Made by a program: the position numbers and the translations under genes. From contig OY365806.1 of the NCBI GenBank assembly GCA_959347315.1, positions 25,691,516 through 25,755,515 of the forward strand: a stretch of DNA of 64,000 nt, written 5' to 3'. The stretch comes from Bimastos eiseni (Eukaryota > Annelida > Clitellata > Crassiclitellata > Lumbricidae). The notes under the pieces were generated by a model, which searched no databases, was not told where the DNA came from, and saw only the letters and a program-made list of their open reading frames with translations. Below, one piece after another: positions 2,761-64,000 of this stretch (position 1 is the first letter of the stretch; the number at the start of each line of letters is the position of its first letter).

Positions 2761-3203
2761 CTATTGGTCAGGAACTTTTGACAAATTGCCTGAGCTACTC
2801 ACTGGCGTCGACCCTGAATTCGTCAGGCCACCATTGACACATTCGCACTCGTCGTCCGTCGCCCTCACCCTGATGACATCGGCGTCCTGCGTCGTCGGCG
2901 GTTCTTTGTCGGAGCTATAGAAGGTCGGTGGGTCCGTTCGACTGAAGATATCGACGACCCTTGAGCGCTTGGAGGTAACCGTCGACTCAGATCCCACCTC
3001 CAATTCGTCGAGGGCCCGATTGGCCTGGTTAAGTCGAACGTTGACGATGATAAAGACTACCACTGATGCGATTGTTATGAGTCCGAGCCAGCCGATCATT
3101 CCGTACAGGAGAAGCTTGATTCCGTTTGATAATATGTCTAGTTCGTTATCGTTCTCTTGCATTTTATCGTATAGACCCATGTCTTCAAGGGAGCTTTGCA
3201 GAC
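2761..3203 (-). CDS. Exon X1 (last coding exon): juxtamembrane segment, transmembrane helix, tail, stop
   Basis: The exon starts after a ttctctaag acceptor with GT, completing the Gly codon begun in X2, and encodes about 146 residues to a TAG at 2761-2763. Order: an acidic 25-30 residue segment; a hydrophobic stretch of about 26 residues at 3037-3114 ([14 protein letters not shown]...VNV); then a Ser/Thr-rich tail with a KRSR basic patch and a CEC motif, the only cysteines I saw in the coding sequence. Charges (acidic before, Arg and KRSR after) suggest helix outside, tail in the cytosol. This places the anchor C-terminal to the collagen helix, unlike collagens XIII, XVII, XXIII and XXV. Two cautions: an in-frame ATG with good context at 3180 would allow a first-exon reading, and a strong donor-like CCA|GTGAGT at 2803/2802 could end the exon early. 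The phase-1 join to X2 favours the last-exon reading. Confidence 0.75.
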
Positions 3204-4610
3204 CTTAGAGAAATTAAGAACATTTCTACGTTAAAATCTTTGCTCTTTACTGCAACGCGTATGCCGGCAATATGAGCTATTCATATCATACGATAGTCCC
3301 ACCTCTACTCTTGCCTTCAAATTGCTTAAATGTATGTCCAAGTTGCTATTTCTAGTAATGAACTTATAATTGTCAATTTATTTATGTATCCATGACGAGA
3401 TAGTTCAATGAGCAGTGGGGGCCATCTGCAATTCGTAGCTGGTAGGAGCGAAAACGTTCTAAGGAAATGTAAACTACAGCCCCAACCAGTGTTATTAAGC
3501 CTATGTAGAAGCAACACCCAGTGTTAGTCGAACACGTAACTGTATACATTAGACGTGTTCTGTCAGCAAAAAGGGTTATTCATCTCTTTCTCTATCTCTT
3601 TCCCTCACTCGTCTGTCTGTCTGTCTGTCTATCTCTCTCTCTCGGTCATGACTATTCAATTACATTTCTAGGGAAGAGTAAGGTAACATAATACACCACA
3701 AAGCCACATTAACATTACATATTGATTAGCTGTCTGCATCTGAAACCACGTTCGTCGCTAGACTCACGCCGTGTCTTACGCTGACCACTGATTGACAACG
3801 CTGGAAAACAAGGGTTAACTCTGACCCAACGAACATGGCTTTTTGAGAGAGTGCGGATGATGGGGATTTTTGCTGCAGCACAAAAACGAAAACAGGGCAA
3901 CAGAAATCCAGCGAGAAATGTAGTATGCAGTAAGTAGCATGTAGTTTGCAGTATGTGTAGTCAGAAAGCCAGAGCAGACAAACAGAAGGAAGATTGACGA
4001 TGAATTATGTAGACTTACCGAGCGCTGGACTACCGCTATCTCCAGAGGGTCCCGTATTCCCTACAACTCCCAGCGCCCCAGTATATCCGGTAGCTCCTGA
4101 TCGACCAGTTGGACCGGTGAAGCCAAGGGCTCCCGGTCTTCCTGTCCATCCAGTGTTTCCTGTGTTGCCCTGGACTCCCGAAGGTCCTGCTGGTCCAGGC
4201 GAACCTATTTGAAACGACGAAATCATTAGTTCTGTTCGACGTACGAACGATCTCTCGGGATGAAGGAGTTAGATATTTATTATTACTAGTATAACACGCA
4301 TCATAATCGTCAAACAAATTGCATAAGCAATAAGCATAAGAGCATTTCATCATGATGCTGCTGCATAAGCAGCAGCATCATGATGAAATGAATAGGCCTG
4401 GAATTATCTGATTATTTAAATGTGCAGCCCAGGGCTTATGGCATTTGTTATTATTTTAACTAAGGTATAACTAAGGTATAAGCCCAAATGACCCCAACAT
4501 GATCCATCACAAGCGATCTCCAGCGAAAGGATCAGACTCACAGATTCGTAGAGTCATTCGTCATCGGCGCCACCACCACCACCACCACCACCACCACCAC
4601 CACCACCACC

Positions 4611-4644
<34 letters not shown>

Positions 4645-7600
4645 TCATCAGCTGCAACAGCAATCAACAAGAAGAACAAGTTCCTTATAATGATGGTGAC
4701 AGTGTCGATGGTAACGACGACTTCGACGATATGATGACCATAACGATGAGGCTGCTTTCGGTTTGGTAAAGCACAGATTCAAGGTTTTTTTAATGTTCTG
4801 TGGCAATGGTCGTAGACATGCATTCATGCGAAGCCTACATCTGCACGACGCATTACGATGATAACTACGAGCAGGATGCCGATTATATTCTATGAATACC
4901 TGCAGGTCCCAGGTCTCCAGATGATCCGACTTGTCCTAGGAATCCGATCGGTCCGAATAGTCCTGTTGCTCCAGTGGCTCCGGTGGCTCCGGTTGATCCA
5001 GTGACTCCACTTGCACCGGTTGCTCCAGTGTATCCGTCTCTTCCTACAGATACAATACAACCAGAACATTCATTAACTCACGATATCAGTACGTTCTGTG
5101 CATTAGTGTTATTTAAGATCTTTTAAAGAAGCGCTAAATAATTTTAAGTGAGATTCATACCTCTTTAAAGGAGTAATTATCATTATTCTAACTAAGTAAT
5201 AAGGCAGTGTATGAATAGATGGACGCATGCATGTATAGCATGCGTGCATACATACTTACTTAGTCTCTCGATCCATTATCATCTTACCTACGCGATCTCT
5301 GCCGATGTTGCATCGCACTGGTGGGTGGGCGCTTCCAACCACAACAAGGGAGGAACTCCTATATTTCAATAGGCTCTCTTAGCTGCTAGGCAACGCAGAG
5401 TTTTCTCGGTTGTAGACCTTCCATCTGCAACGACCTCCAAAATGACCTCCCGTTGGTGCCGCATTCACTACATATGACCTATCCAATTGAGTTTTATACA
5501 TCACTTAAATCTGTTTTCTATTATTTTTGCTGGGTCAGGCGTGCTCGTGAGTAGGCTCCTTGTATGGGCGCTATACAAATACACGCCAGAAATGCATACC
5601 TAATATATTCCTGGGTATATGCATCTAGATGTTGAATATAATAATTAAATTAAGCAAAGAAATTAATCTTCATGAAACTCAAATCGGCCAGAGAACTTGA
5701 TACCAACTGCATCGCTGCATAAAATGTATGCAGCGATGTGTTTGACTTCTAGATTAAATTCAATTTAGTTAAATAAGGGAGACAATAGGCCTCGTTTCAG
5801 ATACACACCTTGAGGTCCCGTGCGACCAGTGGCTCCCGTCGATCCTGGTGGACCCTGCGGTCCTTTGAATCCAAGAGGTCCACTTGGTCCACTTGGTCCA
5901 ACAGGGCCGTCATCTCCAGAAGACCCCGTTGCCCCAGTCCATCCGGTGTAGCCCGCGGGCCCAGTATACCCAGTCGACCCATCAGACCCCGTGGCTCCTG
6001 TGGCCCCCAGTGGTCCTCGGGGGCCTGGAGGGCCGATCGGTCCAGGACCGCCAACATCTCCTGTTGCTCCAGGCTGTCCAATGCTTCCACGCTGGCCGGC
6101 TGGACCCAGGGGTCCTGGCTGGCCTGTGGCTCCAGGGATTCCAGTAGAGCCCTGTACTCCCTGAACTCCAGGTGCACCAGGGTTACCGAATGGACCGCCG
6201 ACGCCTGGAAATCCTTGTATTCCAGACGCTCCTTGCACTCCGTCTGGACCCTGATATCAACGCAATTCATTTACAATTAATTCATTATTGAGTTATTTAT
6301 ATGACCATTTAATTTATTTTCAATATGCAATAATTTTAGATACTAGGTTAATATTTTCAAAACGATGTTTAGATCACTGCATGTCAGCTATACCCACGGA
6401 ACAACCGCAAACACGTTATACACGTTTGCATGAACAAGTCAACAACCACATGACGTCGAAAAAAAATCCGCCTTTCTGTTGAAACTCGCCAGATAGTCAC
6501 AAGCATGTCAATAACACGATGCTTCAATAAATTAGCGTACACTGTAAAACTTACTGAAAAAGCGTCGAAGCTCTTCCTTTGCGAGGTCACTGACACACAT
6601 GTAGTCATCAGAGGTGTAAAAAAGTTTTGAAAAGTGGGGGCCATAATAAAAAAAATATTGCGCGAAGCGCCAAAAAATTTTTTGCCCCCCACATTTTGAA
6701 TTTTGCCCACCACCCCCAGAAATTTGAAAACTGTGGGGCACAAATTATTTTAACAAACGTAATCTTAAAAGCCATTGGATAAACATAAACAAGAACCGAT
6801 TTGAGGGAACATTGTGGGGAGGGCACTGAGCACTAAAACTGTGAAGCTTTGCCCCTAAAGTTTTGAAGCTGAGGGGCCGGTGCCCTCTGCTTCCCCGCTT
6901 GTTACACCCCTTGTAGTCATAGTGAAAACTAGATTTATACATAAAGTGCAATAAGCTTAAATTTCATTAGATCGAATAGTAGAAAATTAGACGAGATCAA
7001 CTTCATATATAAATATTATTATATTATTTCTGATTAGATTACCTGTGGTCCTGCATTTCCTGGTGGTCCGAGTGGTCCAGCTGATCCTGGTTGACCAGCT
7101 GGTCCAATCGGTCCTGCGAAACCTTGCGGTCCAGGTGAACCTTTGTCACCGGCAGGTCCAGATGATCCTGCATCACCTCTTGGGCCAATTGGTCCTGGTG
7201 GACCAAGAGGTCCAAGGGATCCAGTACCACCTGTTGATCCTGGCGGGCCTAAGGGACCTCTTTCTCCAGGCTGGCCTGGATAACCAAACTGGCCTTGGTC
7301 ACCTGCAGGTCCAGGTTGACCGGGATTTCCACTTAGCCCTGTTGGGCCAGGGAATCCGGAGAAACCCGTGGACCCCGTGGAACCAGGACCACCGGGCGGC
7401 CCGCTCTGACCCGCATCGCCAATATCTCCCGGAAAACCCGCCTGGCCAGGAGGCCCTGGCTGTCCGGACTGTCCGTTGCTACCCGGTGGACCTGCATCGC
7501 CCCTAAGTCCTTGATTTCCAGAAGACCCCGTGAATCCAGGTGATCCGGGTGCACCTCTGTCTCCTGCTGGACCAGAGGGTCCAAATGGACCAGATGGTCC

Positions 7601-10600
7601 AATTGGCCCACTCGAACCTGTCGCTCCAGCCGGACCGCTTTGTCCTTGCGGTCCCTTAGATCCTACAGCCCCTGTAGCTCCAGGAGGACCAAGCGATCCG
7701 GGTTGCCCCGCTGGTCCAGGAGATCCTGGCTGACCGGCAGGTCCAGGTGGGCCTGCTTGACCACTGCCACCTCTATCTCCCTGTGGCCCAGCTGGTCCAG
7801 GTAGACCATTTGACCCAATACCACCAGGTGATCCCTTGTCGCCTGGCAGTCCCAGCTGACCAGGCGAACCCGAAGGACCCAGATCACCTGCTTGACCTAG
7901 AAGTCCAGTGCTACCAGTATCACCTGACACCCCGGGCAAACCTCGCGCTCCAGGATTTCCATTAGGTCCATTGGCGCCAGCTGGACCTGGAGATCCTGAT
8001 GACCCTCTATCTCCTGATGGGCCTGGCAAGCCACGAGGACCAGCACTGCCAGAGGATCCAGTGGCTCCTGGGGCGCCGTTTACACCCCGGGGCCCTGCTG
8101 GACCTGGCGGTCCGAGAGGCCCTATGGGTCCTAATTGTCCCGTGGCGCCCGGGTCTCCGATGAGTCCGGCCGGACCATTTGGTCCTTGTGGTCCTGAAGA
8201 GAAATTGAAATTCGGTATCACATAACCACACAGACAGGCAGACAAATTGGTTTTAGCTCATTTTGATAACAGTGCCAATCGGCTCTGTCAGTATACATGA
8301 ATGCTTCTTATGTCTACCAAAGAAAGACAGGCCAAAAGACGGAGACTCAGACAGAAATGAAGTTAGAATAAATAAAGACATACAGAAAGAAAAACCGAGA
8401 AGGAATAACGGAAGGACAAATAGACACACTGGAGTCACAGAGATGTAACCGTAGAGATACAGCATGTGTATTCTTGTAATTGGGTTAAATCAAATCTTGA
8501 ATCTGATTGCTTAATTCTGATTAATTTTCTAATGCATCATACTCCGTTGATGAGTGTGTGTAAATGCGTGTTTTATTATCCATAAAGGAAAAATACCTGG
8601 TGGTCCCTGTGATCCTCTATCTCCAGACGGTCCTGGCTGGCCAGCTGGGCCGATGGTTCCCTGTCCAGGTCCACCTGTGCTGCCTGTGGCTCCCTGCTGA
8701 CCAGGAGGACCTGATGGTCCTAGCACACCGATTGAACCCTTCTCTCCAGGGCTCCCTGTGCTTCCAGTACCCCCGGAGCTACCGGTGTCTCCAGGAGCAC
8801 CCCGGTCGCCGGTAGGGCCCGTGGGTCCATTAGGTCCTGTGGGTCCTTGTTGCCCTGGAGAACCACGAGTACCCTGACCTCCAGCTGAACCTGTATGTTG
8901 AAAAGTAGGAAAAGTCATCTCTATAATGAGCATTTGCATATTTCTCTCCTTAATATCTATGATTGAGTATAACCATAAAATCCGTAACAGCTATATAATA
9001 AATGTCATTTTTTACAGAACCGAACGTTTCAAAAGCCAGGCGTTTCACAATGTAATATATTATTGCTAGAACCATAATTATCATTTTCATTTATCATTGT
9101 CGTCGTTGCTATTAATTGTTAATCTTAGACGTCTTTTTTAAATGATCAGACGATTGGGTCTTAACCTTTAACCTGCCGATCTGCCTGATCCGAGATATTG
9201 CGAACTACGAAACAAGAAATAGTCTCCATGGAGTCCACGTTGCATTCCTAATTATTCAAAACGAAAATTCAGAAAGACGGTTCCCAAGTCATTTGCCAAA
9301 CATCCAACAACGCCTCAAGCAAACATTCTGTTCAAAAGAACATCGTGTAAGCTTGCACATCTCCTCTTAGTGTTATTACCAATATTCGACTGCTCTGAGC
9401 TCTATCCCCAACGCGCATGCGCGGTATCCTCCACAAATATGATGACCGTCTGGTGAATTTAATCTGAATGAATGGGGTACAGCACGGAATCAGTTGAGCT
9501 AATACGCTCACTTATTTCCCAGGAATGCACAGTTTGGGATTCTGTTAATTTTGGAGAGTTTTTGCATAGAATTAAAGTTTGTTGCTGTCTATCATATTCA
9601 GTGGACATTATTGTATGTAGTCATAGGACTCGTTAATACATAAATTAATGTTAACTTACCAAGGGGTCCCTGTGGACCTTGTGGCCCAGCCCTTCCAGCT
9701 GTTCCAGGTGAACCCTTATCTCCCGTTGGTCCGAAAGCACCAGCATTGCCAGGTAATCCGGTGGCTCCAGTATCTCCTGCAGGACCTGCAGCTCCAGGCT
9801 GTCCATTGTCACCTGGCGGTCCTGGATCGCCGAGTGGTCCCAACAGACCGTTCGATCCAGAAGATCCTTTTTGTCCAGTTGGACCTAGCTGACCCGACTG
9901 ACCTGAAATGATTATGAAATTATGTAAGGTCAGGTAGAGTCAGGTAGAGTTAGGAAGGATAATATAACTTAAGATAAGCAGAATTAACGTAATGTATTTT
10001 AATGAAGCACTTGCATAACGCCACTCGAATCAGAGGCGCCCACGACTCAGCACATAGCTGAACGGAGAACAGGAAAGTCTTCACGCGCTTCCGGAAGGCA
10101 GCAGAGGATAAAGAGAGCAGTCCCTCCAGAAGAGGAAGGGGAGGCTCTTTCAGCTGGTGGGGCCCACGTAGGCGAAGCTCCTGGATTGGGCCGTGGCAGA
10201 GTACATGCGGGGAATCACCAGAAGTCCGCGGGCACAGGAATGCAGAGAAAAATAAGGTATGTAAAGGCTAGGTAAAGGTAGATTAATAGATTTGCTTAAT
10301 ATAATGTTAAGGTACACTATATTAGGATAAGGTTAGAAAACGGCTACACCGATATGGCAACTTAGCATAAAGTTGCTTAACATAAAGATTAAGGACAAGG
10401 TGCATAAACATAATATCATAGGTTCAAATATGGCAAACCAGCTGCTTATTTATTAGGCCTGCACTGTATTCAGTAGCATTCATGAATGCTTTAGTTAAAT
10501 AATGCATTACGTCTAGCCTAACCAAACTTACTAATTCATAGCAGAGTAACATCATAGTTATCATATTCATCTTCGTCACATTATTGTCATTATCGTTACT

Positions 10601-39052: not shown

Positions 39053-39090
<38 letters not shown>

Positions 39091-39095
39091 ATATA

Positions 39096-39166
<71 letters not shown>

Positions 39167-57100: not shown

Positions 57101-60100
57101 CTGCCGGTCCTGGGGATCCAGTACCCCCTAAAAGATATCAATAACAGTTTTGAAATACAATTAAACGAATGCATATTTAAATATATATTCTAAATCCAAT
57201 GTAATCTTAATCCAATGCAATCTAAATGATGCGAAAGCATTTATTTAGGCCTACTTATTGAACTTAATTCAAGACTATGTGAGGCAGAATACATGGTAGT
57301 GTAATTATTTATATACTTATAAAATAATTTATTCAATACAATAAACATTTATTTATGTGTTTGATATTTGCTGAATCTAATAATTTTTTATCTGTTTCTG
57401 TTTAAGTGTATATGTAGAGAAGAGAAGATAATTGCATTAAGTGTTGCAAAATTTAAAGATATGTGAATTAATTTTATATTACTTCAATCAATCAATAAAT
57501 CGTTTATTTACTTTAGATACAAAATGTTCATTAATATCATCGTATCGTTGCAATATCAATTACATAATATATGGTTGATAGTTGAGATGTTGGGTGACAA
57601 TTGTATCCATCAACGGATTGAAACAAATTGACCCCAAAAGCTAGGAATCAACTAGATATCACTAATGATGATAAGCTGCTGATCATTCACTATCATATCC
57701 TTTATAGGCCTGTAATGAATAACAGCAGAGCTTATAATTATATGCTGTCATAATATGTTTGGACCTTACTTATTCAAAATATTGCAGGATTGCAAATTTA
57801 CGAAGAAACACGAAACACTAATAATTTGATAGACTTGGCAAATTACTTATTTTGAGTAGTGCTTAGAAAAGTTGCCATTACAAGGAAACTACAAACTTTT
57901 TTAGGTTCTTGTTAGGCCTGTATGTAGCACCAGCCACTTATTTGTTCATTCTGTCCACTTTAATAGCACAGCATGAAAAAACACTCCCTACTGAACTGCC
58001 GACTCAGCTTTTCACCAATTCACCGCGATGAGATACTGGATGGTCCCTAGCAAGTGAATTCAAAGGGGAACAATTATTGTTATGAAACAGACCTGCAACT
58101 CCAGCCTGCCCTGTTGGTCCAGATGGCCCAGCCGGCCCAATTCCTCCAGCCGGTCCCTGCGGTCCAATCGAACCTTGCGGACCTTGTGGACCTGGGTCTC
58201 CAGTTGCTCCTGGATCACCTGTTGCACCTTGTTGTCCAGTTGGTCCCGAAGGTCCCGTGGGACCCTGGTTACCCTGAGATCCGGCCGGACCCTGAAGACC
58301 CTGAAGACCAGTACTGCCGGCGGTCCCAGCTCGACCTATGAAGAAAAATAATCAACAACATTTAGCCTAATCTATAGACCTCTCTTGTATCTATGTATGT
58401 GTGCATGAACATTATATAGCATCTTATAAGAACCTCACAAGGGTTTCTCGTGTAACACGCAACACATCAATCGATGTTATAACAAAGCACACTACATCTG
58501 CAAATCATAATTATATGCAATGCTTTGGAAAGATTCAATAGAAATACTTTGGCTATTTCGACTGGCAAGGTTAGCATTATTCGTGCTCTAAGAATGCACT
58601 CTCCATCGCTCATCAATTCACCTATTTTCCAATCAAGGTCCCTAAAACTTCATGCTTACCTGGAGTACCAGGTGTTCCAGCGGTTCCAGGTGATCCTTTC
58701 TGTCCAGCTGGTCCAGTCGGACCTTTTGGTCCTGTTCCTCCGGCCTGACCCGGTGTTCCGGATGGTCCTGGGGACCCAGTGTCGCCTGAGGGTCCTAGAG
58801 GTCCAGCCTGTCCACTAGCTCCAGGATCACCAATGACTCCTGCATTACCAGCTGGTCCTGTTTGACCACGATCTCCTGGAGGTCCCTGAGATCCGACAGG
58901 TCCCTGGCTCCCTGTTTCGACATACAAAGTACATGGCGTCTAAAACTTCACGCAAAACAATAGCATAAATATGCGCTGTTTACGTGTTGTGCTAAGCTAT
59001 GACGTCCTGTAAACATGGCAAAGTACTATTTCGACTTGGTACATTTTTAATAAACATAGTCATATTCCATGATGCAATGCTATGTTTTGTTAGCTATTCC
59101 ATTGTTGTCGTCTTATGGCTTGCTCTCGTATTTTATGCAATGCAATTTATAATATGATGCAATGTGGAAAAATTTGCTTTCTTTGGTTATCGTCTCCTCT
59201 TCTATATTTTCTTCCTTTCCTGAACCAATCAAGGGTGTTTTATACAGCACAAACTTTCCTCCCATTAGCAGACCTCACGTGTAACTGACTTTACCTGCCA
59301 ATCCGGGCGTTCCTGCTTGTCCTTGATCGCCTCTGTCGCCTGCAGGCCCTGGTGGCCCCGTGCCTCCAGGAGTTCCAGTCGGTCCAGTAGGCCCCGAAGG
59401 CCCAACATCACCAGGCTGGCCCAGAGGTCCTGGCAAACCAGTGGAGCCAGGTAGCCCGGAACTTCCCTGATTTCCAGTAGGCCCTTTCGGACCTGCTGGT
59501 CCCTGAGGACCCAACTGTCCCGTTGGTCCAGCATCTCCTCGTAGTCCAGCCGATCCCTGAGGTCCTGGTAGCCCGATATCACCAGCAGGTCCAGTCGGAC
59601 CTTGAGGACCTCGGTCGCCTGGTTGACCGGATGGGCCAGGCTGACCCAGTGAACCTGGTTGTCCAGGCTGACCAATGCTGCCCTTATCTCCTGGTGATCC
59701 AGATGCCCCAGATGGTCCAGGTAATCCGGATGGGCCAGGCGATCCAATGGGACCAGTTGGTCCTTGAGTACCTTTGTCACCTGTGAAAGGAAATAATCAG
59801 GTTAGTGTCAAATTTAACGTGTATGTAATATAGCAATCCTAAAATAAGTGTGCCAGGCATACCAAGCATGCACATGAAGACAGCAAGATCCATGTTGTTT
59901 GTTCGTTTCCGTTGCAGGTAGAACCCGGGGTCCAGTCACCAGATCTTGACTAATTGGTGACATCTGACTATCAGCACGGTGCTATCTTGGAAAACGTTAG
60001 TGCATGTGAGTATAATTCGATCTAATGAGCTGGTGCCGTCTAGGTGAAGCACCGGTCGCAGAATATGAAAGAGAGAATGAGACAGGAGGCCAAAATAAAT

Positions 60101-63100
60101 AAGCCATTACAACGAAATAGCAGATAATAATGGTTTGATAGTGAATAGCCCCCTAGCTGGATAATCTGAGAGGGTTAATAGGTTCGAAGAACACTGTATG
60201 CAAGAGATAAAAAAAATTAGGGGATGCACTGAAGAACTTTGAAGCTATACGAGGACTTGAGTAAAGTGGTGGTGTTTAGGAGTTTCTTTCGACTGCGCGG
60301 GAGAGAACAGTCCACATTCCTTGTGGTAACATAAAGAAAGATCCATATGAGGCTCATCACCATCATAGCCATCATCATAAATATTTTAATCATCATTGTC
60401 GTCGTCGTTACCGTCAACGTCGTTGTCATCATCAACATCGACAACAATCACAACATCATCGTCATCAAAAACATTTCAACGTGACAAGTGAAACAGAAGA
60501 TATCAATGCAAATTATGTAATTGATGCTGATAATTAGCAAATAGGGGATTATAATAAATTGATCAGTCAAGCTTTAAGATAATATTTAATTATTAAAACT
60601 AATTTTGAAAATACACTTCAATAAAGCAAGTTCTCACCTGGATTTCCTGCGGTTCCAGCAGGACCCTTGTCTCCAGTTGCACCAGTGGACCCGGTAGCCC
60701 CTTGGGGTCCTGTTGGTCCGGATGGACCAGCCGCACCTGTAACATAACGTCGCAGATTCAAATACACGTATCTAAATGCTACAGGTATAAAATGTATATA
60801 GGGTCTATTTCACATAAAAATACACTATTACTATTATTATTATTGTTACAGACATTTAATATAAAGATAGAGCCCTGACCGAATACATATATACATGCCG
60901 ACAAGCGTAATATTGAATTGAAACACTAAGATTCAATTCAGTTACGGTAAGGCCTAGAATGTTTTATAATTAGATTTTAATACGATAATTACCAGCGTCA
61001 TCACCAGAGTAATGAAGTTTTGGGTAAGGCAGAGAAGCTGAAGTACCTCCCGCGGAGTAATATCAAATGCGCAGTCATTTTTTATTGATGGTTTTAAATA
61101 AACCAATTAACAAGTAGGCTTACATACTGAACAATTGCTGCCTCATTTATTTCCTGTGTTCAGTTACTTGTAATTCCTAAAACTTTAGTTCTTACTGGCT
61201 GACATTGGTAGTTAAGAACTTAAGATTGGCATGATGTTGTAATTAGATTATGGTTTGGTGTGAATAAGATATTAGGTTTAGATATTATTTGGCAGAATAT
61301 TTGGATTACCTTGAAATCCAGTTGATCCTGGCTGTCCAGCCAATCCAGGTGAACCGGGTGACCCTTGAGGACCTGCAGGTCCAGTTGGACCACGATCTCC
61401 AGCCGGTCCCAGAGGTCCCGTGGGACCTTGTCGTCCAGGGTCTCCCTGTTGTCCCGTATCACCTTTTGGTCCAAGTGGTCCAGCCGATCCTGGAGAACCC
61501 GTTGCTCCAGAGGACCCTTGAGGACCGACCTGTCCTTTTGCACCCTGAGGTCCAGTTGAGCCCTGAGCCCCGTTTGATCCAGCGGAACCCACATCACCCG
61601 TCGGTCCTGGTGCACCTCTGTCGCCCTGAGGACCAGCTGGTCCGGCAGGACCAACGTCTCCCGGCAGACCGGGACTTCCTGTCCCTCCTTGAGAACCAAT
61701 TGCACCAGCGGGTCCGGATGGTCCAATTGGTCCAGCAGGGCCAACAGAGCCAGCTGGGCCTGTGGGTCCTCTGTCACCTGCCTGTCCAACTGGCCCAGTA
61801 GGGCCGCGGTCTCCTGGAGACCCAGCGCTACCTGCACTACCTCTGTCTCCTGCCGGGCCTACGGGCCCTGACGGCCCAAGCTGACCTGGAAGATCAGAGC
61901 AGACGATTCAATTAGGAGCCAGTTGCAAAACCTACTTTCTATATTCTCAATTCCAACTTGTTATAATTTCAGATTTTAGTTACTTTATAAGTGTGGCACA
62001 GTGGCCAATCGGTTAGAGCGGTCAGCCCGTAACGTTCAGTGTGTGCTGAGCGCGCGGGTTCGAACCTCGTGTGTAGGGACCTTGAGCAAGTCCTTCGCGC
62101 ACCATTGCTCTGTAGTACAACTGCAATTGCGCCGTCGAGGCGTGTGTATGCACTTATCAGCAAAAAGATGTTGGAAGAAGGGTGGTATTAAATTTCGGAA
62201 ATGAATGAATGAATAAGTACACACACTAACTTAGTAAAATGCAGATAATTAATTGACTCGATTTGTTAATCATTTGCTTCATCATCTACAGTCACTCAGT
62301 CCGTCAATGAGTCAGTCGGTAAATGAGTCAGTTTGTCAATCAGTCAGTCAGTCAGTCAGTCGGTCAATCAGTCAGTCGGTCAATCAGTCAGTCAGGCGGT
62401 CAATCAGTCAGTCAGGCGGTCAATCAGTCATTCGATCAATCAATCACTCTGTAGGTCAATCAGTTAGTCGGTCAATCAGTCTGTCGGTCAATCAGTCAGT
62501 CGATCAATCAGTCGGTCAATCAGTCAGTCAGTCGGTCAGTTAGAGTGATGAAGTCACTGACTTATTCGATAAACCAATCGGTCGGTCGTTCACCTACTCA
62601 CTCTCTACATGTATACGTAATGTCTTCTTTCTAGCGATGTATTTGAACCATAATGAACTCGTTCTACCTGGATTTCCAGCCGAACCGGGACTTCCTTTGT
62701 CACCAACCGGTCCAGCTAGACCGGTGTCTCCACGTGGTCCCTGTTGTCCTGCGGGACCAGCTGGGCCCTGAAGGCCAGGCTGTCCATCGGTACCTGGGGT
62801 ACCCGATAACCCAACGGGTCCCTTGGAACCAGTAGCTCCTGTGGCACCAGTTGCTCCTGTTCAGGATAAAAGTTGAAACATAATTTGTTTAATTCCTACT
62901 TAACTTGAAATCATACTTAATTGTACAAAATAAGAAAGTTAAAATCAACTTCAAAATTATATTATGTTTCGTTCAAAAACATTTAAGAATGTTTGATTAA
63001 AGATTTACAGAACTGCCTTGAAAGTTTTCAACCAAATTATATTTTAAAATATTAGTACTGACTAAGTCGAAGGAGGCATTTCTATTCAAATATAGCTTAG

Positions 63101-64000
63101 ATTTGGGCTTGTATCTTTAGAAGTGTTTAATTTTATAGGCGGAAAACTTCAGTCAATTGCTATTGCAAATGGTGCTAGCAACATAAAAAATTTAAAAATG
63201 CCTAGCGGTAGCTCAACCTCAACCGTAAAATGAGATGCAACATTTTAAATGCACTGTTAAGCTGATTTACAATAACATAATGGCAGTGCTTAATATGGCA
63301 GATGATTTGTATTAGCAATGATTTTATTCCCTACAATAAGATGAATTGCTATAATAGAACGAGTTATATAATTTTGATAGGACGACTAATTATGGTTGAC
63401 ATTTCAAGCTCCATATACCTTGCTGTCCAGCAGGTCCGGTTGACCCAGGCAATCCAGGACTGCCTGCTTGCCCAGCTGGGCCCGATAGTCCTTTGTCTCC
63501 TAGTAGGCCTGAATCTCCTGTCGGGCCTACATCTCCTCTGTCACCTGCTGGTCCCTGAGGTCCTTGGGAACCTTGTAGACCTATCATATTACAAGCAACA
63601 GGATGTCAACTAAACATAATGGTGGATAAAAATATTTCTTCAACGATTTTAGTTATATATTTTAAATTCTCAGTGGTATGGACTGTCTGATGAGATCACG
63701 GAAGTAGCATGAAGCTTGACTCAAAACGCTATACATGTAGCCTGTTTAAGAGAGAGAATTTGACTGAATCCGAGCAGTCATGGGAAGCCACAGAAGAAGT
63801 CGAAATATGAGAGTAACAAGGAAAGCGTGCGCTGATACGAACTCATGCATTAAGTTCAGAACGGAGCCGGGCGATGCGGGGTTTTGGTTGACCGATGAGT
63901 AAAGATAACTTTCCAGTAGTCAATAACAGAATACCTTGTCTTGATTCAACTTATCCAACCTAATTTGTCGAAATCGTTCCGTAATTTACCTTAGCTCACC
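2761..64000 (-). CDS. Giant collagen with C-terminal membrane anchor (gene-level entry, 5' incomplete)
   Basis: The gene encodes an extracellular structural protein expected to form a homo- or heterotrimeric collagen helix. Seen: 52 minus-strand exons, of which 51 encode Gly-X-Y repeats (6,972 codons) and the last (X1) a transmembrane segment and tail. Exon ends were set by GT/AG sites that keep the Gly register; every junction is phase-compatible, and exon lengths are multiples of 9 bp except X2, X6 and X32 (X4+X5 count together). Human collagen helices have about 1,000-1,500 residues, so this one is several times longer. There is no fibrillar C-propeptide, NC1, C1q, vWA or fibronectin module in the window. 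X positions favour Pro, Ser, Ala, Asp and Gln; Y positions favour Ala, Thr, Pro, Ser and Gln. Inferred: one transcript, possibly an annelid cuticle-type collagen. The alternative is two or more adjacent collagen genes, for which I saw no boundary. The promoter is outside the window. Confidence 0.85.
3037..3114 (-). other. Predicted transmembrane segment in X1
   Basis: Twenty-six residues without charge, rich in Leu, Ile, Val and Gly, from the Leu after IK to the Val before RL. This is long enough to span a bilayer. It is the only hydrophobic stretch of this kind in any exon found. Confidence 0.8.
3611..3643. repeat. (TCTG)n/(TC)n microsatellite
   Basis: Pure tctg units followed by tc units, in the intron between X2 and X1. 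Confidence 0.9.
4019..4204 (-). CDS. Collagen exon X2 (last helical exon)
   Basis: 62 codons. Starts GSP GPA GPS and ends GSP-Ala-Leu, then G|gtaagt. The helix therefore stops within the last codons, and the split Gly joins X1. It contains unusual aromatic residues in GWT, GFT and GYT. Its length is not a multiple of 9 because the final triplet is broken by the Ala-Leu end. Confidence 0.9.
4343..4390. repeat. Perfect hairpin, 21-bp arms
   Basis: Arms 4343-4363 and 4370-4390 are exact reverse complements around the 6-base loop cataag. It lies in the intron between X3 and X2. It could be a small hairpin transcript, a palindromic repeat or a short inverted duplication. Confidence 0.9.
4570..4650. 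repeat. (CAC)n/(CAT)n microsatellite
   Basis: About 80 bp of cac units running into cat units. On the plus strand it reads as poly-His, which I regard as spurious. Confidence 0.95.
4900..5043 (-). CDS. Collagen exon X3
   Basis: 48 codons, 16 triplets. Starts GRD GYT GAT after ctgtag and ends GDL GPA G|gtattc. The middle is a run of five GxT-type triplets. It has no ATG/GTG/TTG-led open frame of length, so simple ORF finding misses it. Confidence 0.9.
5809..6250 (-). CDS. Collagen exon X4 (starts in phase 0)
   Basis: 442 bp. Begins with a complete Gly codon, GPD GVQ GAS, after tatcag and ends GRT GPQ G|gtgtgt. It pairs with X5 across the only phase-0 intron I found. X4+X5 together are 1,593 bp, an exact multiple of 9. 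Confidence 0.92.
6609..6912. mobile_element. hAT-like MITE, 304 bp
   Basis: Flanked by identical 8-bp direct repeats gtagtcat (6601-6608 and 6913-6920), the target duplication length of hAT transposons. Ends are imperfect inverted repeats: cagaggtgtaaa at the left and the reverse complement of aaggggtgtaac at the right. The interior is G-rich with a gcgcgaagcgc palindrome and carries no transposase. Open frames across it are spurious. It lies in the intron between X5 and X4. Confidence 0.8.
7043..8193 (-). CDS. Collagen exon X5 (1,151 bp)
   Basis: 383 codons plus a split Gly; second longest exon. Starts GPQ GPN GPA after cttcag and ends GNA GPQ|gtaatc in phase 0. The Gly-X-Y register is unbroken. 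It contains RGD at 7172-7180 and 7496-7504 and a GQPGER hexapeptide at 7259-7276, of the GxOGER type bound by collagen-binding integrins if the Pro is hydroxylated. Confidence 0.95.
8597..8890 (-). CDS. Collagen exon X6, with one-residue interruption
   Basis: 98 codons. Starts GSA GGQ GTR, ends GSQ GPP G|gtattt. One residue is missing from a triplet: GGP GQ GTI, with the lone Gln codon at 8661-8663. This explains a length that is not a multiple of 9. It holds one of the few Glu residues of the helix (GEK). Confidence 0.92.
8891..9659. other. Intron between X7 and X6
   Basis: 769 bp. I see no gene, repeat array or recognisable element in it. Confidence 0.5.
9660..9902 (-). CDS. Collagen exon X7
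   Basis: 81 codons, 27 triplets. Starts GQS GQL GPT after tttcag and ends GPQ GPL G|gtaagt. Confidence 0.92.
10020..10245. repeat. Possible interspersed repeat in the intron between X8 and X7
   Basis: A GC-richer, purine-rich island in otherwise AT-rich intron. It has the look of a dispersed repeat, but I found no terminal repeats or coding motif. Low confidence. Confidence 0.25.
10550..10780. repeat. Degenerate (CAT/GTC)n trinucleotide-like tract
   Basis: Imperfect cat, gtc and aat units over about 230 bp in the intron between X8 and X7. Open frames here follow from the simple repeat. Confidence 0.7.
10844..11194 (-). CDS. Collagen exon X8
   Basis: 117 codons, 39 triplets. Starts GDA GTR GDA, giving an RGD motif right at the exon start, and ends GPP GTR G|gtaaca. 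It is unusually rich in Ala at Y. Confidence 0.93.
11878..12129 (-). CDS. Collagen exon X9
   Basis: 84 codons, 28 triplets. Starts GAA GQI GAT after tttcag and ends GSP GPA G|gtcagt. The in-register frame was read through without a stop; the longer open frames here are in shifted registers. Confidence 0.92.
12738..12924. mobile_element. hAT-like MITE, 187 bp
   Basis: Inverted ends cagggccgtactgag (left) and the reverse complement of ctgggccgtaccgag (right). Flanking octamers gcttacac (12730-12737) and gctaacac (12925-12932) match at 7 of 8 positions, as expected for a hAT target duplication. No coding capacity. It lies in the intron between X10 and X9. Confidence 0.8.
13553..13876 (-). CDS. 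Collagen exon X10
   Basis: 108 codons, 36 triplets. Starts GTS GSP GAN, ends GQP GQI G|gtgagc. Confidence 0.94.
13877..15176. other. Intron between X11 and X10
   Basis: 1,300 bp. The part 14630-14930 is purine-rich and looks like a dispersed repeat, without terminal repeats that I could define. I see no gene. Confidence 0.4.
15177..15464 (-). CDS. Collagen exon X11
   Basis: 96 codons, 32 triplets. Starts GNV GVP GPQ, ends GQR GAQ G|gtatac. It contains an RGD (GQR GDP) and a run of GAT/GST triplets near the start. Confidence 0.93.
15703..16413 (-). CDS. Collagen exon X12 (711 bp)
   Basis: 237 codons, 79 triplets. Starts GPS GNA GAT, ends GSK GTL G|gtgagt. Unbroken register; charges sit mainly in GDK and GDR triplets. 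Confidence 0.95.
16414..17426. other. Intron between X13 and X12
   Basis: 1,013 bp. I recognise no gene or repeat element. Confidence 0.5.
17427..17732 (-). CDS. Collagen exon X13
   Basis: 102 codons, 34 triplets. Starts GVQ GPS GDV after gtcacag and ends GQN GQQ G|gtacga. Read through in register without a stop. Confidence 0.9.
18349..18492 (-). CDS. Collagen exon X14
   Basis: 48 codons, 16 triplets. Starts GGT GAT GTN, ends GPQ GDN G|gtatgt. Too short to appear as a long open frame. Confidence 0.9.
18650..18985. repeat. Long polypyrimidine tract
   Basis: About 335 bp of nearly pure T/C on the plus strand (cttctt, tcctcc and ctttct mixtures), in the intron between X15 and X14. On the transcribed RNA it is polypurine. 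Lys/Glu-rich and Ser/Phe-rich open frames here are artefacts of the composition. Confidence 0.9.
19171..19944 (-). CDS. Collagen exon X15 (774 bp)
   Basis: 258 codons, 86 triplets. Starts GPA GSI GPA, ends GSP GPV G|gtcagt. Contains an RGD in GPR GDP. Confidence 0.95.
20940..21510 (+). mobile_element. LINE (CR1/L2-like) reverse transcriptase 3' relic
   Basis: The plus-strand frame 20952-21320 matches the end of non-LTR reverse transcriptases: [27 protein letters not shown], a RSAD..IVPRAR stretch and WNDLPL. A stop follows RGKL, and the typical KTFLF-type end then appears in another frame near 21350. The 3' end runs into an att-rich microsatellite (about 21450-21510). It is 5'-truncated and inactive, and lies antisense in the intron between X16 and X15. 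Confidence 0.85.
21528..21986 (-). CDS. Collagen exon X16
   Basis: 153 codons, 51 triplets. Starts GLA GPS GPP after gggactag-like context (cccag acceptor) and ends GPA GPA G|gtaaat. The register was checked triplet by triplet and has no stop. Three GDR triplets cluster in the middle. Confidence 0.92.
22335..22568 (-). CDS. Collagen exon X17
   Basis: 78 codons, 26 triplets. Starts GLN GAQ GPA after tgcag and ends GQA GSQ G|gtcagt. A longer open frame extends upstream through an Asp/Gly-coding microsatellite, which I treat as intron. Confidence 0.92.
22651..22818. repeat. (CAT)n/(CAC)n-rich microsatellite
   Basis: Cat, cga and cac units over about 170 bp, starting about 80 bp from exon X17. 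In the collagen frame it would read as an Asp/Gly-rich run; the acceptor at the X17 edge excludes it from the coding sequence. Confidence 0.9.
23443..23802 (-). CDS. Collagen exon X18, with GPD-AVA-GER interruption
   Basis: 120 codons, 40 triplets. Starts GSP GPS GPS, ends GVA GPP G|gtaagt. At 23480-23488 the expected Gly is Ala (GCC), giving GPD AVA GER. This is one of three Asp-Ala interruptions in the gene, and it sits next to one of the rare Glu residues. Confidence 0.93.
24202..24795 (-). CDS. Collagen exon X19
   Basis: 198 codons, 66 triplets. Starts GSA GPR GQQ, ends GLQ GPA G|gtaaga. Its 3' end was the source of, or shares origin with, the relic at 25430-25490. Confidence 0.94.
24796..26982. 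other. Longest intron, between X20 and X19
   Basis: 2,187 bp. Apart from the collagen relic near 25450 I recognise no gene, tandem array or transposon. It would be one place for a hidden gene boundary, but there is no start or stop exon visible. Confidence 0.5.
25430..25490. pseudogene. Collagen-exon relic in the intron between X20 and X19
   Basis: Positions 25430-25470 closely match the 3' end of X19 (ccttgtaat, cgttatctcc and ggagatcct in order) with an inserted triplet. The next bases, 25465-25490, read GDK GLP on the opposite strand, as if the copy were partly inverted. There are no usable splice sites. A degenerate partial duplication. Confidence 0.6.
26983..28161 (-). CDS. Collagen exon X20 (1,179 bp, longest exon)
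   Basis: 393 codons, 131 perfect triplets. Starts GPA GPA GPA, ends GSP GSV G|gtgagt. The whole exon was read triplet by triplet without a stop. I saw no Glu, Cys, His, Phe, Tyr or Trp. By my count Thr occupies about 22 of the 131 Y positions. Contains RGD in GLR GDP. It is not found as one long ATG-led frame because start-like codons are missing upstream. Confidence 0.94.
28677..29126 (-). CDS. Collagen exon X21
   Basis: 150 codons, 50 triplets. Starts GDT GSS GTP, ends GTQ GSI G|gtgagt. Confidence 0.93.
29504..29656 (-). CDS. Collagen exon X22
   Basis: 51 codons, 17 triplets. Starts GPA GIR GPV, ends GDI GQA G|gtatgc. Confidence 0.93.
29750..29830 (+). repeat. Dispersed repeat, copy 1
   Basis: Shares ttgtccattagaa, aaataaaactaa and tatgtaaat in the same order with 32130-32215. 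About 80 bp; nature unknown, possibly a SINE or transposon tail. Confidence 0.6.
30081..30665 (-). CDS. Collagen exon X23
   Basis: 195 codons, 65 triplets. Starts [12 protein letters not shown] after gaacag and ends GPA GSQ G|gtaatt. The first 16 codons lie upstream of the first start-like codon and were placed by the acceptor site. Confidence 0.92.
30666..31524. other. Intron between X24 and X23
   Basis: 859 bp. A stretch near 30710-30800 is rich in tacgtacg- and catgcatg-type alternating sequence. No gene seen. Confidence 0.5.
31525..31992 (-). CDS. Collagen exon X24
   Basis: 156 codons, 52 triplets. Starts GSA GQA GSQ, ends GPA GPS G|gtagac. Contains two GRN triplets. Confidence 0.93.
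32130..32215 (+). repeat. Dispersed repeat, copy 2
   Basis: Partner of 29750-29830, two exons away. It is followed by gaat/gaac tetranucleotide units (about 32220-32252), as in SINE or LINE tails. Confidence 0.6.
32400..32490 (-). repeat. tRNA-like SINE head (relic)
   Basis: The minus strand has a perfect box B-like ggttcaagtcc (32410-32420) preceded at tRNA-like distance by a box A-like stretch. It does not fold as a good tRNA, so it is a SINE-derived relic at best. Confidence 0.4.
32757..32954 (-). CDS. Collagen exon X25
   Basis: 66 codons, 22 triplets. Starts GPS GQP GSA after acacagag and ends GSA GPP G|gttagc, a weak donor. X26 has the same length. Confidence 0.9.
33063..33122 (-). pseudogene. 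Degenerate collagen exon or cryptic 60-bp exon
   Basis: The minus strand reads [15 protein letters not shown] in collagen register with one Gly to Arg change, then loses the repeat and includes a Cys. It has an atag acceptor and a G|gtacca donor-like end and is phase-compatible (60 bp). Most likely a decayed exon between X26 and X25, but alternative use cannot be excluded. Confidence 0.45.
34005..34202 (-). CDS. Collagen exon X26
   Basis: 66 codons, 22 triplets. Starts GLS GPT GPT, ends GPS GPA. I chose the donor G|gtgata because it keeps phase 1 with X25. A better-looking gtaagg eight bases downstream would give phase 2 and break the frame. Confidence 0.85.
34203..35494. other. Intron between X27 and X26
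   Basis: 1,292 bp. Two TAGGCCTA octamers (34381-34388, 34658-34665). A plus-strand open frame at 34793-35029 has no recognisable motif. No gene seen. Confidence 0.5.
35495..36385 (-). CDS. Collagen exon X27 (891 bp)
   Basis: 297 codons, 99 perfect triplets. Starts GTP GSP GAQ, ends GQR GQS G|gtaaaa. Contains RGD in GPR GDI GSP. Confidence 0.95.
36839..37378 (-). CDS. Collagen exon X28
   Basis: 180 codons, 60 triplets. Starts GSQ GLP GAV, ends GQP GLS G|gtaaga. The first 30 codons precede the first start-like codon. Confidence 0.93.
37928..38260 (-). CDS. Collagen exon X29
   Basis: 111 codons, 37 triplets. Starts GSA GAS GPS, ends GTS GNP G|gtaatt. Contains RGD in GPR GDI GTP. Confidence 0.94.
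38601..38888 (-). CDS. Collagen exon X30
   Basis: 96 codons, 32 triplets. Starts GTP GQN GAT, ends GAP GNA G|gtgagc. Confidence 0.94.
39030..39161. repeat. (CA)n-(TA)n compound microsatellite
   Basis: Ac units to about 39090, then at units to 39161, in the intron between X31 and X30. Minus-strand frames rich in Ile-Tyr and Cys-Val derive from it. Confidence 0.95.
39403..39861 (-). CDS. Collagen exon X31
   Basis: 153 codons, 51 triplets. Starts GNP GAT GSP, ends GAT GSS G|gtaatt. Confidence 0.93.
40189..40253. repeat. (CAGG/CAGA)n microsatellite
   Basis: Cagg and caga units with ccagg variants in the intron between X32 and X31. Confidence 0.9.
40260..40870. repeat. Possible interspersed repeat
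   Basis: Purine-rich, GC-richer stretch next to the cagg array in the intron between X32 and X31. It looks like dispersed-repeat sequence, but I could not define ends or a family. Confidence 0.25.
41154..41492 (-). CDS. Collagen exon X32, with one-residue interruption
   Basis: 113 codons. Starts GPQ GAT GDP, ends GPA GTN G|gtaaat. One triplet is short: GPR GV GPQ, with the lone Val codon at 41335-41337. This explains a length that is not a multiple of 9. Confidence 0.93.
41691..42383 (-). CDS. Collagen exon X33 (693 bp)
   Basis: 231 codons, 77 triplets. Starts GVQ GAV GAT after tttaag and ends GQR GPT G|gtgagg. The register was read through completely. It has a Lys-rich stretch ([18 protein letters not shown], later GPK GPK). 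Confidence 0.93.
42384..43629. other. Intron between X34 and X33
   Basis: 1,246 bp. No gene or mobile element recognised. Confidence 0.5.
43630..43908 (-). CDS. Collagen exon X34, with GRD-AQP interruption
   Basis: 93 codons, 31 triplets. Starts GPQ GDQ GSQ and ends [10 protein letters not shown]|gtatgc. The last full triplet (43631-43639) has Ala instead of Gly, the same GRD-Ala pattern as the X37/X36 junction. Confidence 0.92.
44291..44571. mobile_element. Foldback element with nested inverted repeats
   Basis: Outer arms 44313-44355 and 44517-44560 and inner arms 44386-44412 and 44430-44456 (27 bp, two mismatches) are near-perfect inverted repeats. Direct repeats ctaccatctttg at 44291-44302 and 44560-44571 bracket the structure. 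No transposase. It lies in the intron between X35 and X34; family unknown. Confidence 0.8.
44994..45173 (-). CDS. Collagen exon X35
   Basis: 60 codons, 20 triplets. Starts GAA GQP GPQ, ends GPA GPI G|gtaaga. Confidence 0.94.
45620..45880 (-). CDS. Collagen exon X36 (first codon is Ala)
   Basis: 87 codons, 29 triplets. After gtag it starts CT, so the split codon from X37 becomes GCT (Ala): AST GGT GPT. Ends GPA GQA G|gttggt. The donor is weak, and I chose it because a gtacag three bases further would be phase 3-shifted to phase 2 and break the join to X35. Confidence 0.85.
46535..47326 (-). CDS. Collagen exon X37 (792 bp)
   Basis: 264 codons, 88 triplets. Starts GGT GAT GPQ and ends GTA GRD G|gtaatg; the next codon, shared with X36, is Ala. 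Unbroken register otherwise. Confidence 0.95.
47906..48418 (-). CDS. Collagen exon X38 (513 bp)
   Basis: 171 codons, 57 triplets. Starts GNI GPA GPV, ends GTP GAT G|gtgaaa. It has the same length as X40 and X42 and shares the positions of several charged triplets with them (4, 18 and 42). Confidence 0.95.
48776..48846. repeat. (CATA)n/(CATG)n microsatellite
   Basis: Cata and catg units in the intron between X39 and X38. Confidence 0.9.
48960..49088 (-). repeat. tRNA-derived SINE-like relic abutting exon X39
   Basis: The minus strand has a box A-like gatatgttagagcg and a box B-like ggttcaagtct (49026-49036) at tRNA spacing. The arms are degenerate, so it is not a working tRNA. The head lies within a few bases of the X39 donor. 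Confidence 0.5.
49091..49486 (-). CDS. Collagen exon X39, with HLT interruption
   Basis: 132 codons, 44 triplets. Starts GSP GQQ GNA after ttacag and ends GPQ GPT G|gtaggg. At 49362-49370 the triplet is His-Leu-Thr (Gly to His), the only His I saw in the helix. It also contains a GMP and a GEP, both rare. Confidence 0.92.
49487..50008. other. Intron between X40 and X39
   Basis: 522 bp of AT-rich sequence. Nothing recognised. Confidence 0.5.
50009..50521 (-). CDS. Collagen exon X40 (513 bp)
   Basis: 171 codons, 57 triplets. Starts GTN GSP GPT, ends GSP GAQ G|gtaagt. Charged triplets at positions 4, 18 and 42 (all GDK) coincide with X38, and GDK at 42 and 50 with X42. Confidence 0.95.
50990..51430 (-). 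CDS. Collagen exon X41
   Basis: 147 codons, 49 triplets. Starts GSV GAT GAT, ends GST GSP G|gtagac. Contains RGD in GTR GDI. Confidence 0.94.
51431..52866. other. Intron between X42 and X41
   Basis: 1,436 bp. Contains a cccca run and a long tctg/tctc microsatellite (51783-51942). The rest holds nothing I recognise. Confidence 0.5.
51783..51942. repeat. (CCCCA)n then (TCTG/TCTC)n microsatellite
   Basis: Ccacc units to about 51811 followed by pyrimidine tetranucleotides. Leu/Ser-rich plus-strand frames are artefacts of it. Confidence 0.9.
52867..53379 (-). CDS. Collagen exon X42 (513 bp)
   Basis: 171 codons, 57 triplets. Starts GPA GSI GPV, ends GTP GQQ G|gtactc. Charged triplets at positions 18 (GPK), 36 (GDR), 42 and 50 (GDK) align with X38 and/or X40. 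Confidence 0.95.
53686..54126 (-). CDS. Collagen exon X43
   Basis: 147 codons, 49 triplets. Starts GPI GPQ GSQ, ends GPV GPQ G|gtatta. Contains RGD in GLR GDT. Confidence 0.94.
54127..55508. other. Intron between X44 and X43
   Basis: 1,382 bp. Contains the SINE-like head at 54722-54850. No gene seen. Confidence 0.5.
54722..54850 (+). repeat. tRNA-like SINE head (relic)
   Basis: Box A-like gtaaggtgttgga and box B-like gttcaaatcc (54772-54781), followed by a body with gggtaactcggctataaaatgg-type sequence common in SINE tails. Not foldable as a functional tRNA. Confidence 0.45.
55509..55796 (-). CDS. Collagen exon X44
   Basis: 96 codons, 32 triplets. Starts GPL GPL GPP, ends GST GPA G|gtcaga. 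Read through in register without a stop. Confidence 0.92.
56014..56690. repeat. 16-bp minisatellite (AATCTAAATCCAATGT)n
   Basis: About 40 imperfect copies of a 16-bp unit over about 677 bp in the intron between X45 and X44. A TAGGCCTA insertion interrupts one copy at 56330-56337. Confidence 0.95.
56867..57127 (-). CDS. Collagen exon X45
   Basis: 87 codons, 29 triplets. Starts GGT GSP GPA after ttttag and ends GPS GPT G|gtcatt. The same 16-bp minisatellite flanks it on both sides. Confidence 0.92.
57188..57226. repeat. Satellite copies on the other side of X45
   Basis: About two and a half units of the same 16-bp repeat as 56014-56690, in the intron between X46 and X45. Confidence 0.85.
57227..58092. 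other. Rest of the intron between X46 and X45
   Basis: AT-rich. Nothing recognised apart from one TAGGCCTA octamer at 57246-57253. Confidence 0.5.
58093..58335 (-). CDS. Collagen exon X46
   Basis: 81 codons, 27 triplets. Starts GRA GTA GST, ends GQA GVA G|gtctgt. Confidence 0.92.
58660..58911 (-). CDS. Collagen exon X47
   Basis: 84 codons, 28 triplets. Starts GSQ GPV GSQ, ends GTP GTP G|gtaagc. Confidence 0.94.
59295..59780 (-). CDS. Collagen exon X48
   Basis: 162 codons, 54 triplets. Starts GDK GTQ GPT, ends GTP GLA G|gtaaag. Two RGD motifs (GLR GDA and GDR GDQ). Confidence 0.94.
59781..60637. other. Intron between X49 and X48
   Basis: 857 bp. Contains a degenerate cat/gtc trinucleotide tract at about 60355-60470. 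No gene seen. Confidence 0.5.
60638..60736 (-). CDS. Collagen exon X49 (smallest exon, 99 bp)
   Basis: 33 codons, 11 triplets. Starts GAA GPS GPT after gttacag and ends GTA GNP G|gtgaga. Too short to be seen as an open frame. Confidence 0.9.
60737..61309. other. Intron between X50 and X49
   Basis: 573 bp of AT-rich sequence. Nothing recognised. Confidence 0.5.
61310..61885 (-). CDS. Collagen exon X50
   Basis: 192 codons, 64 triplets. Starts GQL GPS GPV, ends GST GFQ G|gtaatc. Confidence 0.94.
61991..62216 (+). mobile_element. tRNA-derived SINE
   Basis: Starts with a tRNA-like head: box A-type gtggccaatcggttagagcg and a perfect box B ggttcgaacc (62057-62066). An unrelated body follows, then a gaat tetranucleotide tail ending near 62216. 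The acceptor arms do not pair, so it is not a functional tRNA gene. It lies in the intron between X51 and X50. Confidence 0.75.
62288..62548. repeat. (GTCAGTCGGTCAATCA)-type tandem array
   Basis: About 260 bp of gtca, gtcg, gtcaat and cagt units, next to the SINE. It reads as Ser-Gln-rich on the plus strand, which is spurious. Confidence 0.95.
62668..62856 (-). CDS. Collagen exon X51
   Basis: 63 codons, 21 triplets. Starts [12 protein letters not shown], ends GSA GNP G|gtagaa. RGD at 62726-62734. Confidence 0.92.
62857..63418. other. Intron between X52 and X51
   Basis: 562 bp of AT-rich sequence. Nothing recognised. Confidence 0.5.
63419..63580 (-). CDS. Collagen exon X52 (most 5' exon seen)
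   Basis: 54 codons, 18 triplets. Starts GLQ GSQ GPQ after atcatag, ends GPA GQQ G|gtatat. RGD at 63531-63539 (GDR GDV). It needs a preceding phase-1 exon, so the gene continues beyond the window. Confidence 0.93.
63581..64000. other. Intron upstream of X52, up to the window edge
   Basis: No collagen sequence inside. The last bases read G|gtgagc on the minus strand, a strong donor after a single G, so the next exon probably begins at or just past 64000. Confidence 0.5.

Follow-up and report, generated by a model that had tools for sequence, protein, structure and literature searches.

The giant collagen gene

The minus strand of contig OY365806.1 of the earthworm Bimastos eiseni (C1, 71,778,175 bases) carries a giant collagen gene of 67 exons. 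It runs from 82351 down to 2761 in the coordinates of the window (the whole 64,000-nucleotide stretch of DNA that was analyzed) and reaches beyond it (Table 1). The window was joined to 50 kb below and 100 kb above, and the resulting 214 kb contain no N. The coding sequence is 26,550 nt, or 8,849 codons without a stop (8,837 if reading starts at the second in-frame ATG), and position 2761 is the final base of the stop codon. All 66 introns are GT-AG: 64 are in phase 1 and split a Gly codon, the exon ends following the rule G/gt...ag/GN, one is in phase 2 and one in phase 0. Exon length is a multiple of nine in 52 of the 65 Gly-X-Y exons. Splice sites were chosen by rule and score; the least certain are the acceptor of exon 49 and the start of exon 32, which has three non-helical residues ahead of its first Gly.

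The 51 Gly-X-Y exons that lie inside the window (exons 16 to 66) total 20,925 nt and have GT-AG junctions and matching phases throughout. They bear out a sequence-only reading of the window, which had described 51 consecutive minus-strand Gly-X-Y exons of compatible phase (20,916 nt by its count) in a gene incomplete at the 5' end: beyond position 64000 there are 15 more exons, of which 14 encode Gly-X-Y and the first carries a signal-like segment. The suggestion that the window might hold the complete genomic organization fails because the gene continues outside it to 82351. The statement that no foreign domain intervenes is true of the 51 exons; at the end of the gene it breaks down, since exon 67 codes for a transmembrane segment followed by a tail. 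With low-complexity runs excluded, the window has 56 Gly-X-Y runs of six or more triplets, all but one (plus strand) on the minus strand; none occurs in any of 30 dinucleotide shuffles. tRNA and Rfam searches gave no match.

Table 1. Positions of the giant collagen gene and its landmarks, in window coordinates.
Feature	Position	Strand	Basis
Window part of the gene, exons 16-67 of 67	2761..64000	-	gene model
Exons 1-15, outside the window	82351-64180	-	gene model
51 Gly-X-Y exons 16-66 and their introns	4019..63580	-	gene model
Exon 67: helix end, juxtamembrane part, one transmembrane segment, tail, stop	2761..3203	-	phase-1 acceptor, hydropathy
Exon 66, final Gly-X-Y exon, Thr-rich, ends GDSGSPAL	4019..4204	-	
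Exon 65, 144 nt here and in C3	4900..5043	-	
Exon 64, follows the sole phase-0 intron (exons 63/64); 442 nt in both C1 and C3	5809..6250	-	
Exon 63, 1,151 nt here and in C3	7043..8193	-	
Exon 48, the longest, with 1,179 nt in both C1 and C3	26983..28161	-	
Exons 42 and 43, separated by the only phase-2 intron, common to C3	32757..34202	-	

An intronic minisatellite at 56016-56682 has a 16-bp unit in about 40 copies, with a stray similar unit at 57189-57227. The intron that separates exon 65 from exon 66 has a CCA microsatellite (4570-4626), which reads as poly-Gly in one minus-strand frame and mimics a collagen run. Directly upstream of the gene, an open reading frame (L016:452-898) resembles, as judged by eye, the remnant of a Tc1/mariner-type transposase; about 13 kb upstream of the gene start there is a homeobox-like fragment, VKVWFQNRRMKWKRSKG, on the minus strand (L017:1666-1800). 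Downstream of the gene, a recent tandem duplication repeats three open frames 515 bases apart, with repeated open frames at window -9682 and -10197 (L012/L013 boundary).

The helix and the C-terminal membrane exon

The encoded chain opens with a signal-like segment, MTLRRESRLPQKMTSHKSPGSPGSKVILCFLLILGSLIRTTETQSIP, recognized by eye. The helix begins at residue 48 and is 8,653 residues long, equivalent to 2.47 μm at 0.286 nm per residue. It has 14 short interruptions (15 breaks are listed, the first being the pre-helix segment) and no Cys; outside the signal segment the only Cys residues are 8822 and 8824, both in the tail. Pro occupies 36.7% of the X positions in 2,861 triplets, while the Y positions hold Pro (18.4%), Thr (13.8%) and Ser (11.4%); the most frequent triplets are GPA (291) and then GPS (187). 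Thr makes up 10-13% of Y in the body of the helix but 32% in the first 19 counted triplets and 42% in the final 59. All seven Tyr and Trp residues of the helix lie within its final 340 residues (exons 63-66, residues 8366-8681), possibly a zone of cross-linking or nucleation. A scan for charge periodicity from 30 to 1,500 residues, run without a positive control, gave no peak above shuffles, and a weak 75-residue Thr period, one of five measures, was reached by 2% of shuffles. Gly-Hyp-Ser and glycosylated Thr are part of the chemistry of earthworm cuticle collagen, and the Pro in X, Thr and Ser in Y, and GPS triplets predicted here would fit it.

Past the helix end (...GDSGSPAL) the chain continues in exon 67 through the juxtamembrane part into a single transmembrane segment, after which there are 91 residues. 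The best 21-residue segment has a hydropathy of 2.42 in exon 67, compared with at most 0.86 in the helix, and no second copy of the membrane exon was found in the 214 kb. The direction in the membrane is not fixed by the charges of the C1 gene alone because the net charge is -1 on each side of the segment; in C3, C4, C5 and C12, the paralogous loci described below, the tail side is the more positive. AlphaFold2 modeling of the exon 67 product as a single chain gave one helix (residues 2-71), with pLDDT 83-96 in the block of residues 11-60, and a disordered tail, at a low overall confidence (mean pLDDT 59.9, pTM 0.29). A Pfam search of the last exon returned no family above the cut-off, and a search of solved structures returned no match. 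The chain has two dibasic sites, at residue 4 and in the tail, and none between helix and membrane, so any release step would be without an obvious cleavage site.

Of 6,487 candidates searched with a profile built from four last exons, 27 database proteins matched at E <= 0.01. Nine relatives of the C1 gene type could be aligned at 58-87% identity, with conservation running from the juxtamembrane part through the membrane segment into the tail; the other 18, sorted by eye, look like the C5 or C4 types. In two of the relatives, P0014 and P0026, collagen-like residues run directly into the membrane part, as they would in spliced RNA, and intron loss would give the same picture. The P0014 sequence VRGPPGAALLGLQQQ matches the predicted C5 exon junction. 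Searches for longer relatives with an end like the last exon, in the length classes of 8,756 and 650 residues, found none (100 and 296 candidates, with only the last exon scored). Among P0001-P0027, C5-type and C4-type tails close with -SSTF and -SSTY, and the C12 tail closes with -TSTS, ends that we take to resemble PDZ-binding ends.

Paralogous giant loci and their register

The genome searched comprises 660,451,143 bases in 118 contigs, and scoring of 150 of its 2,730 candidates brought out further collagen clusters that span tens of kilobases (C3, C4, C5 and C12). All five giant loci examined, including C1, have a transmembrane exon at the 3' end, each joined in phase 1 as read. A signal-like first exon is present in the three whose 5' end was reached (C1, C3 and C5); the search for it used a wider filter, and a narrower one that demanded A or G after GT missed the first exon of C1. 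The last exon of C3 is 42% identical to that of the C1 gene over 131 residues. C4 matches weakly (E 0.004), and by sequence alone C5 and C12 give no significant match, so the likeness of these three last exons lies in their place, phase and build. Smaller collagen clusters occur at 21.43-21.46 Mb of C12 and 2.84-2.86 Mb of C1, with open frames of up to 565 and 767 codons.

For exons 2-10 and 32-66, which make up 44 of the 65 Gly-X-Y exons, the C1 and C3 genes could be compared; the sequence covered stops short of the C3 equivalents of exons 11-31 in mid-gene and of the 5' ends in C4 and C12. Exon lengths are identical to the nucleotide in 41 of the 44, the exceptions being exon 3, which is 3 nt longer in C3, and exons 35 and 50, which are 3 and 9 nt shorter; the summed lengths are 17,943 and 17,934 nt. 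Every one of the 44 C3 exons is bounded by AG and GT, and none contains a stop. Ten did not come straight from the script: exons 3-6 were each merged from two pieces, and for exons 7, 42, 43, 56, 63 and 64 the site was sought with the length or phase of the C1 gene in view. Among the 34 taken exactly as the script gave them, 32 equal their C1 counterparts in length. Over the 41 equal exons, X/Y identity is 0.381 in register (3,562 positions) and falls to 0.138-0.167 when the sequences are shifted by 1-8 triplets.

The four exons before the membrane exon sum to 1,923 nt in C5 and C12 (1377+216+207+123) and, divided differently, in the C1 gene (1151+442+144+186); in C4 the sum is 1,950 or 1,923 nt, one exon having been measured as 234 or 207 nt. 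The exon series 360, 261, 441, 369, 351, 225 is common to C4 and C12, and in its place the C1 gene has 624, 444, 369, 351, 225. Exon 66 carries a 13-residue sequence in common with the C3 gene, and the C5 gene has a 13-residue form too. Most X and Y residues have changed while the length of the repeat was kept, and the length is therefore under selection. Co-assembly of paralogous chains would be the simplest reason, and fiber packing is another; the paralogous chains share a register and may assemble together.

Relation to known collagens and a proposed route of assembly

Annelid cuticle collagens measure about 2.4-2.5 μm, although a literature search for the source of this figure found nothing relevant. 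The sequence-only reading had proposed a cuticle-type giant collagen, and this is still the best reading of the gene, given the 2.47 μm helix, the annelid source and the giant annelid collagens already published. The latter include an Alvinella protein of 8,859 aa, three from Paralvinella transcriptomes (8,689, 8,413 and 7,719 aa) and one in Eisenia andrei (PMC12403961, in the part available). Length alone is hence not new, the chain here being 8,849 aa. Pro is more frequent in X than in Y both in Eisenia (0.403 and 0.215; PMC12403961) and here (0.367 and 0.184), although the two were counted differently. Section 12 of that paper deals with lengths and composition, and not with gene structure, chain ends, a membrane anchor or paralog register. 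The accessible text of PMC11766948 describes annelid cuticle collagen as having "a very long triple helix", with glycosylated Thr in Riftia. The present chain resembles the cuticle collagens of Riftia, Nereis and Lumbricus in its very long helix and in the Thr and Ser available in Y for glycosylation. Annelid cuticle collagens have also been reported with globular domains (PMC11766948, same extract), whereas the chain here is predicted to have only the helix, the membrane segment and a disordered tail. The short interrupted Gly-X-Y blocks between conserved Cys of nematode cuticle collagens, described in the same extract, differ from the one giant Cys-free helix found here, while a role in the apical cuticle, presumed for the present chain, would be alike.

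With fibrillar collagens the giant chain shares a long, nearly unbroken helix and, presumably, assembly from the C-terminus. COLFI matches number 30 in the genome, in 8 places, all away from the giant loci, which are thus not fibrillar collagens; this identity was ruled out. Fibrillar collagens have a 234-residue charge period, unlike the chain here, which has no charge periodicity between 30 and 1,500 residues, no COLFI, and phase-1 introns that split Gly codons.

Membrane collagens of the MACIT group (XIII, XXIII, XXV and C. elegans COL-99) are type II proteins with an N-terminal anchor, and a helical segment next to the membrane may drive their trimer formation; they are described as not found in Annelida (PMC4678570, in the part available). 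The giant collagen is like them a membrane collagen with a helical segment beside the membrane. Membership of the group was rejected on reading the chain: its N-terminus is signal-like, its membrane segment is C-terminal, and its helix is far longer. MACITs also have a conserved Cys-containing extracellular motif at the C-terminus; in the giant chain the tail holds the only Cys (8822 and 8824) outside the signal segment. The anchor looks, from the sequence, as if it sits at the end of the chain opposite to that of known membrane collagens. No description of a C-terminal membrane anchor in annelids was found in the literature searched, a body that has most subscription journals outside its scope. 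As far as the searches reach, what is new is the anatomy from end to end, together with the C-terminal anchor and the conserved register, while the kind of collagen itself was known.

The gene is read, with a probability of roughly 70%, as encoding a single chain of a giant collagen of the earthworm cuticle type, synthesized as a type I membrane protein and later released as rods. That it is one gene is close to certain. The cuticle identity, as judged from predicted length, composition and taxon, is very probable; membrane anchoring, at least during synthesis, can be held with similarly high confidence, and a later release is slightly favored. In such a scheme the chain would enter the secretory pathway N-terminus first, with its C-terminus holding it in the ER membrane. 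Three chains would meet via the juxtamembrane/transmembrane helix; nucleation of the triple helix would fall to the C-terminal Gly-X-Y block, which is rich in Thr, and zipping would proceed towards the N-terminus. The tail, presumably cytosolic, may assist export on the apical side of the epidermis, and proteolysis between helix and membrane would then free rods of about 2.47 μm into the cuticle.

Instead of being released, the collagen could remain a giant tether, its C-terminus fixed in the epidermal membrane, for example in microvilli crossing the cuticle. The conservation of the membrane segment and tail among relatives would suit such a permanent anchor, but a tail needed only in synthesis would also be conserved. 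The lack of a cleavage-like dibasic site ahead of the membrane points the same way; against it, very long free molecules of cuticle collagen have been isolated from annelids, which suggests release. Permanent anchoring is on balance unlikely. It is also rather improbable that the chain belongs to a matrix other than the body cuticle, such as the gut lining, setae, cocoon or body wall: with five giant loci not all need serve the cuticle, but length, composition and taxon fit cuticle collagen.

Exon 67 lies 816 nt away across an intron and might be an alternative 3' exon or that of a neighboring gene, the main product being secreted with another ending. Its correct phase and acceptor, the similar exon at all five loci, and the joining of collagen-like residues to the membrane part in P0014 and P0026 (where intron loss would look alike) make this distinctly improbable. 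What reads as one gene could in principle be several, a cluster of pseudogenes or an assembly error, and the Alvinella authors warn that collagen repeats may mislead assemblers (PMC12403961, in the section available). The single gene of the sequence-only reading is upheld by its uniform GT-AG introns, its stop-free frame and the same exon series in the paralog on chromosome 3. C3 keeps 41 of 44 exon lengths at 38% X/Y identity, for which reason these alternatives, including the separate genes or pseudogene cluster that the earlier reading had named as refuting it, are very unlikely indeed. The series opens with one signal-like exon and closes with one membrane exon, of which 214 kb hold no second copy, and there is no long exon duplication: among the best 30 self-matches all but one 142 bp pair are intronic minisatellite. 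The complete gene and its C3 paralog thereby count against the worry about assembly artifacts raised for Alvinella (PMC12403961).

Beyond the released cuticle collagen favored for this gene, a wider proposal stays tentative and falls somewhat short of an even chance. It holds that earthworms have at least five type I anchored giant collagens, in which a C-terminal membrane helix replaces the C-propeptide, obligate heterotrimers keep chains from different chromosomes in one register, give or take a few residues, and conserved cytosolic tails couple the cell interior to cuticle deposition. No account was found, in the literature searched, of how so long a chain (nearly 9,000 residues) could meet its partners, fold and be exported. 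The complete gene with its C-terminal anchor suggests a testable answer to all three: the conserved register predicts which chains assemble together and, if the proposal is true, a C-terminal membrane helix would nucleate one of the longest known triple helices.
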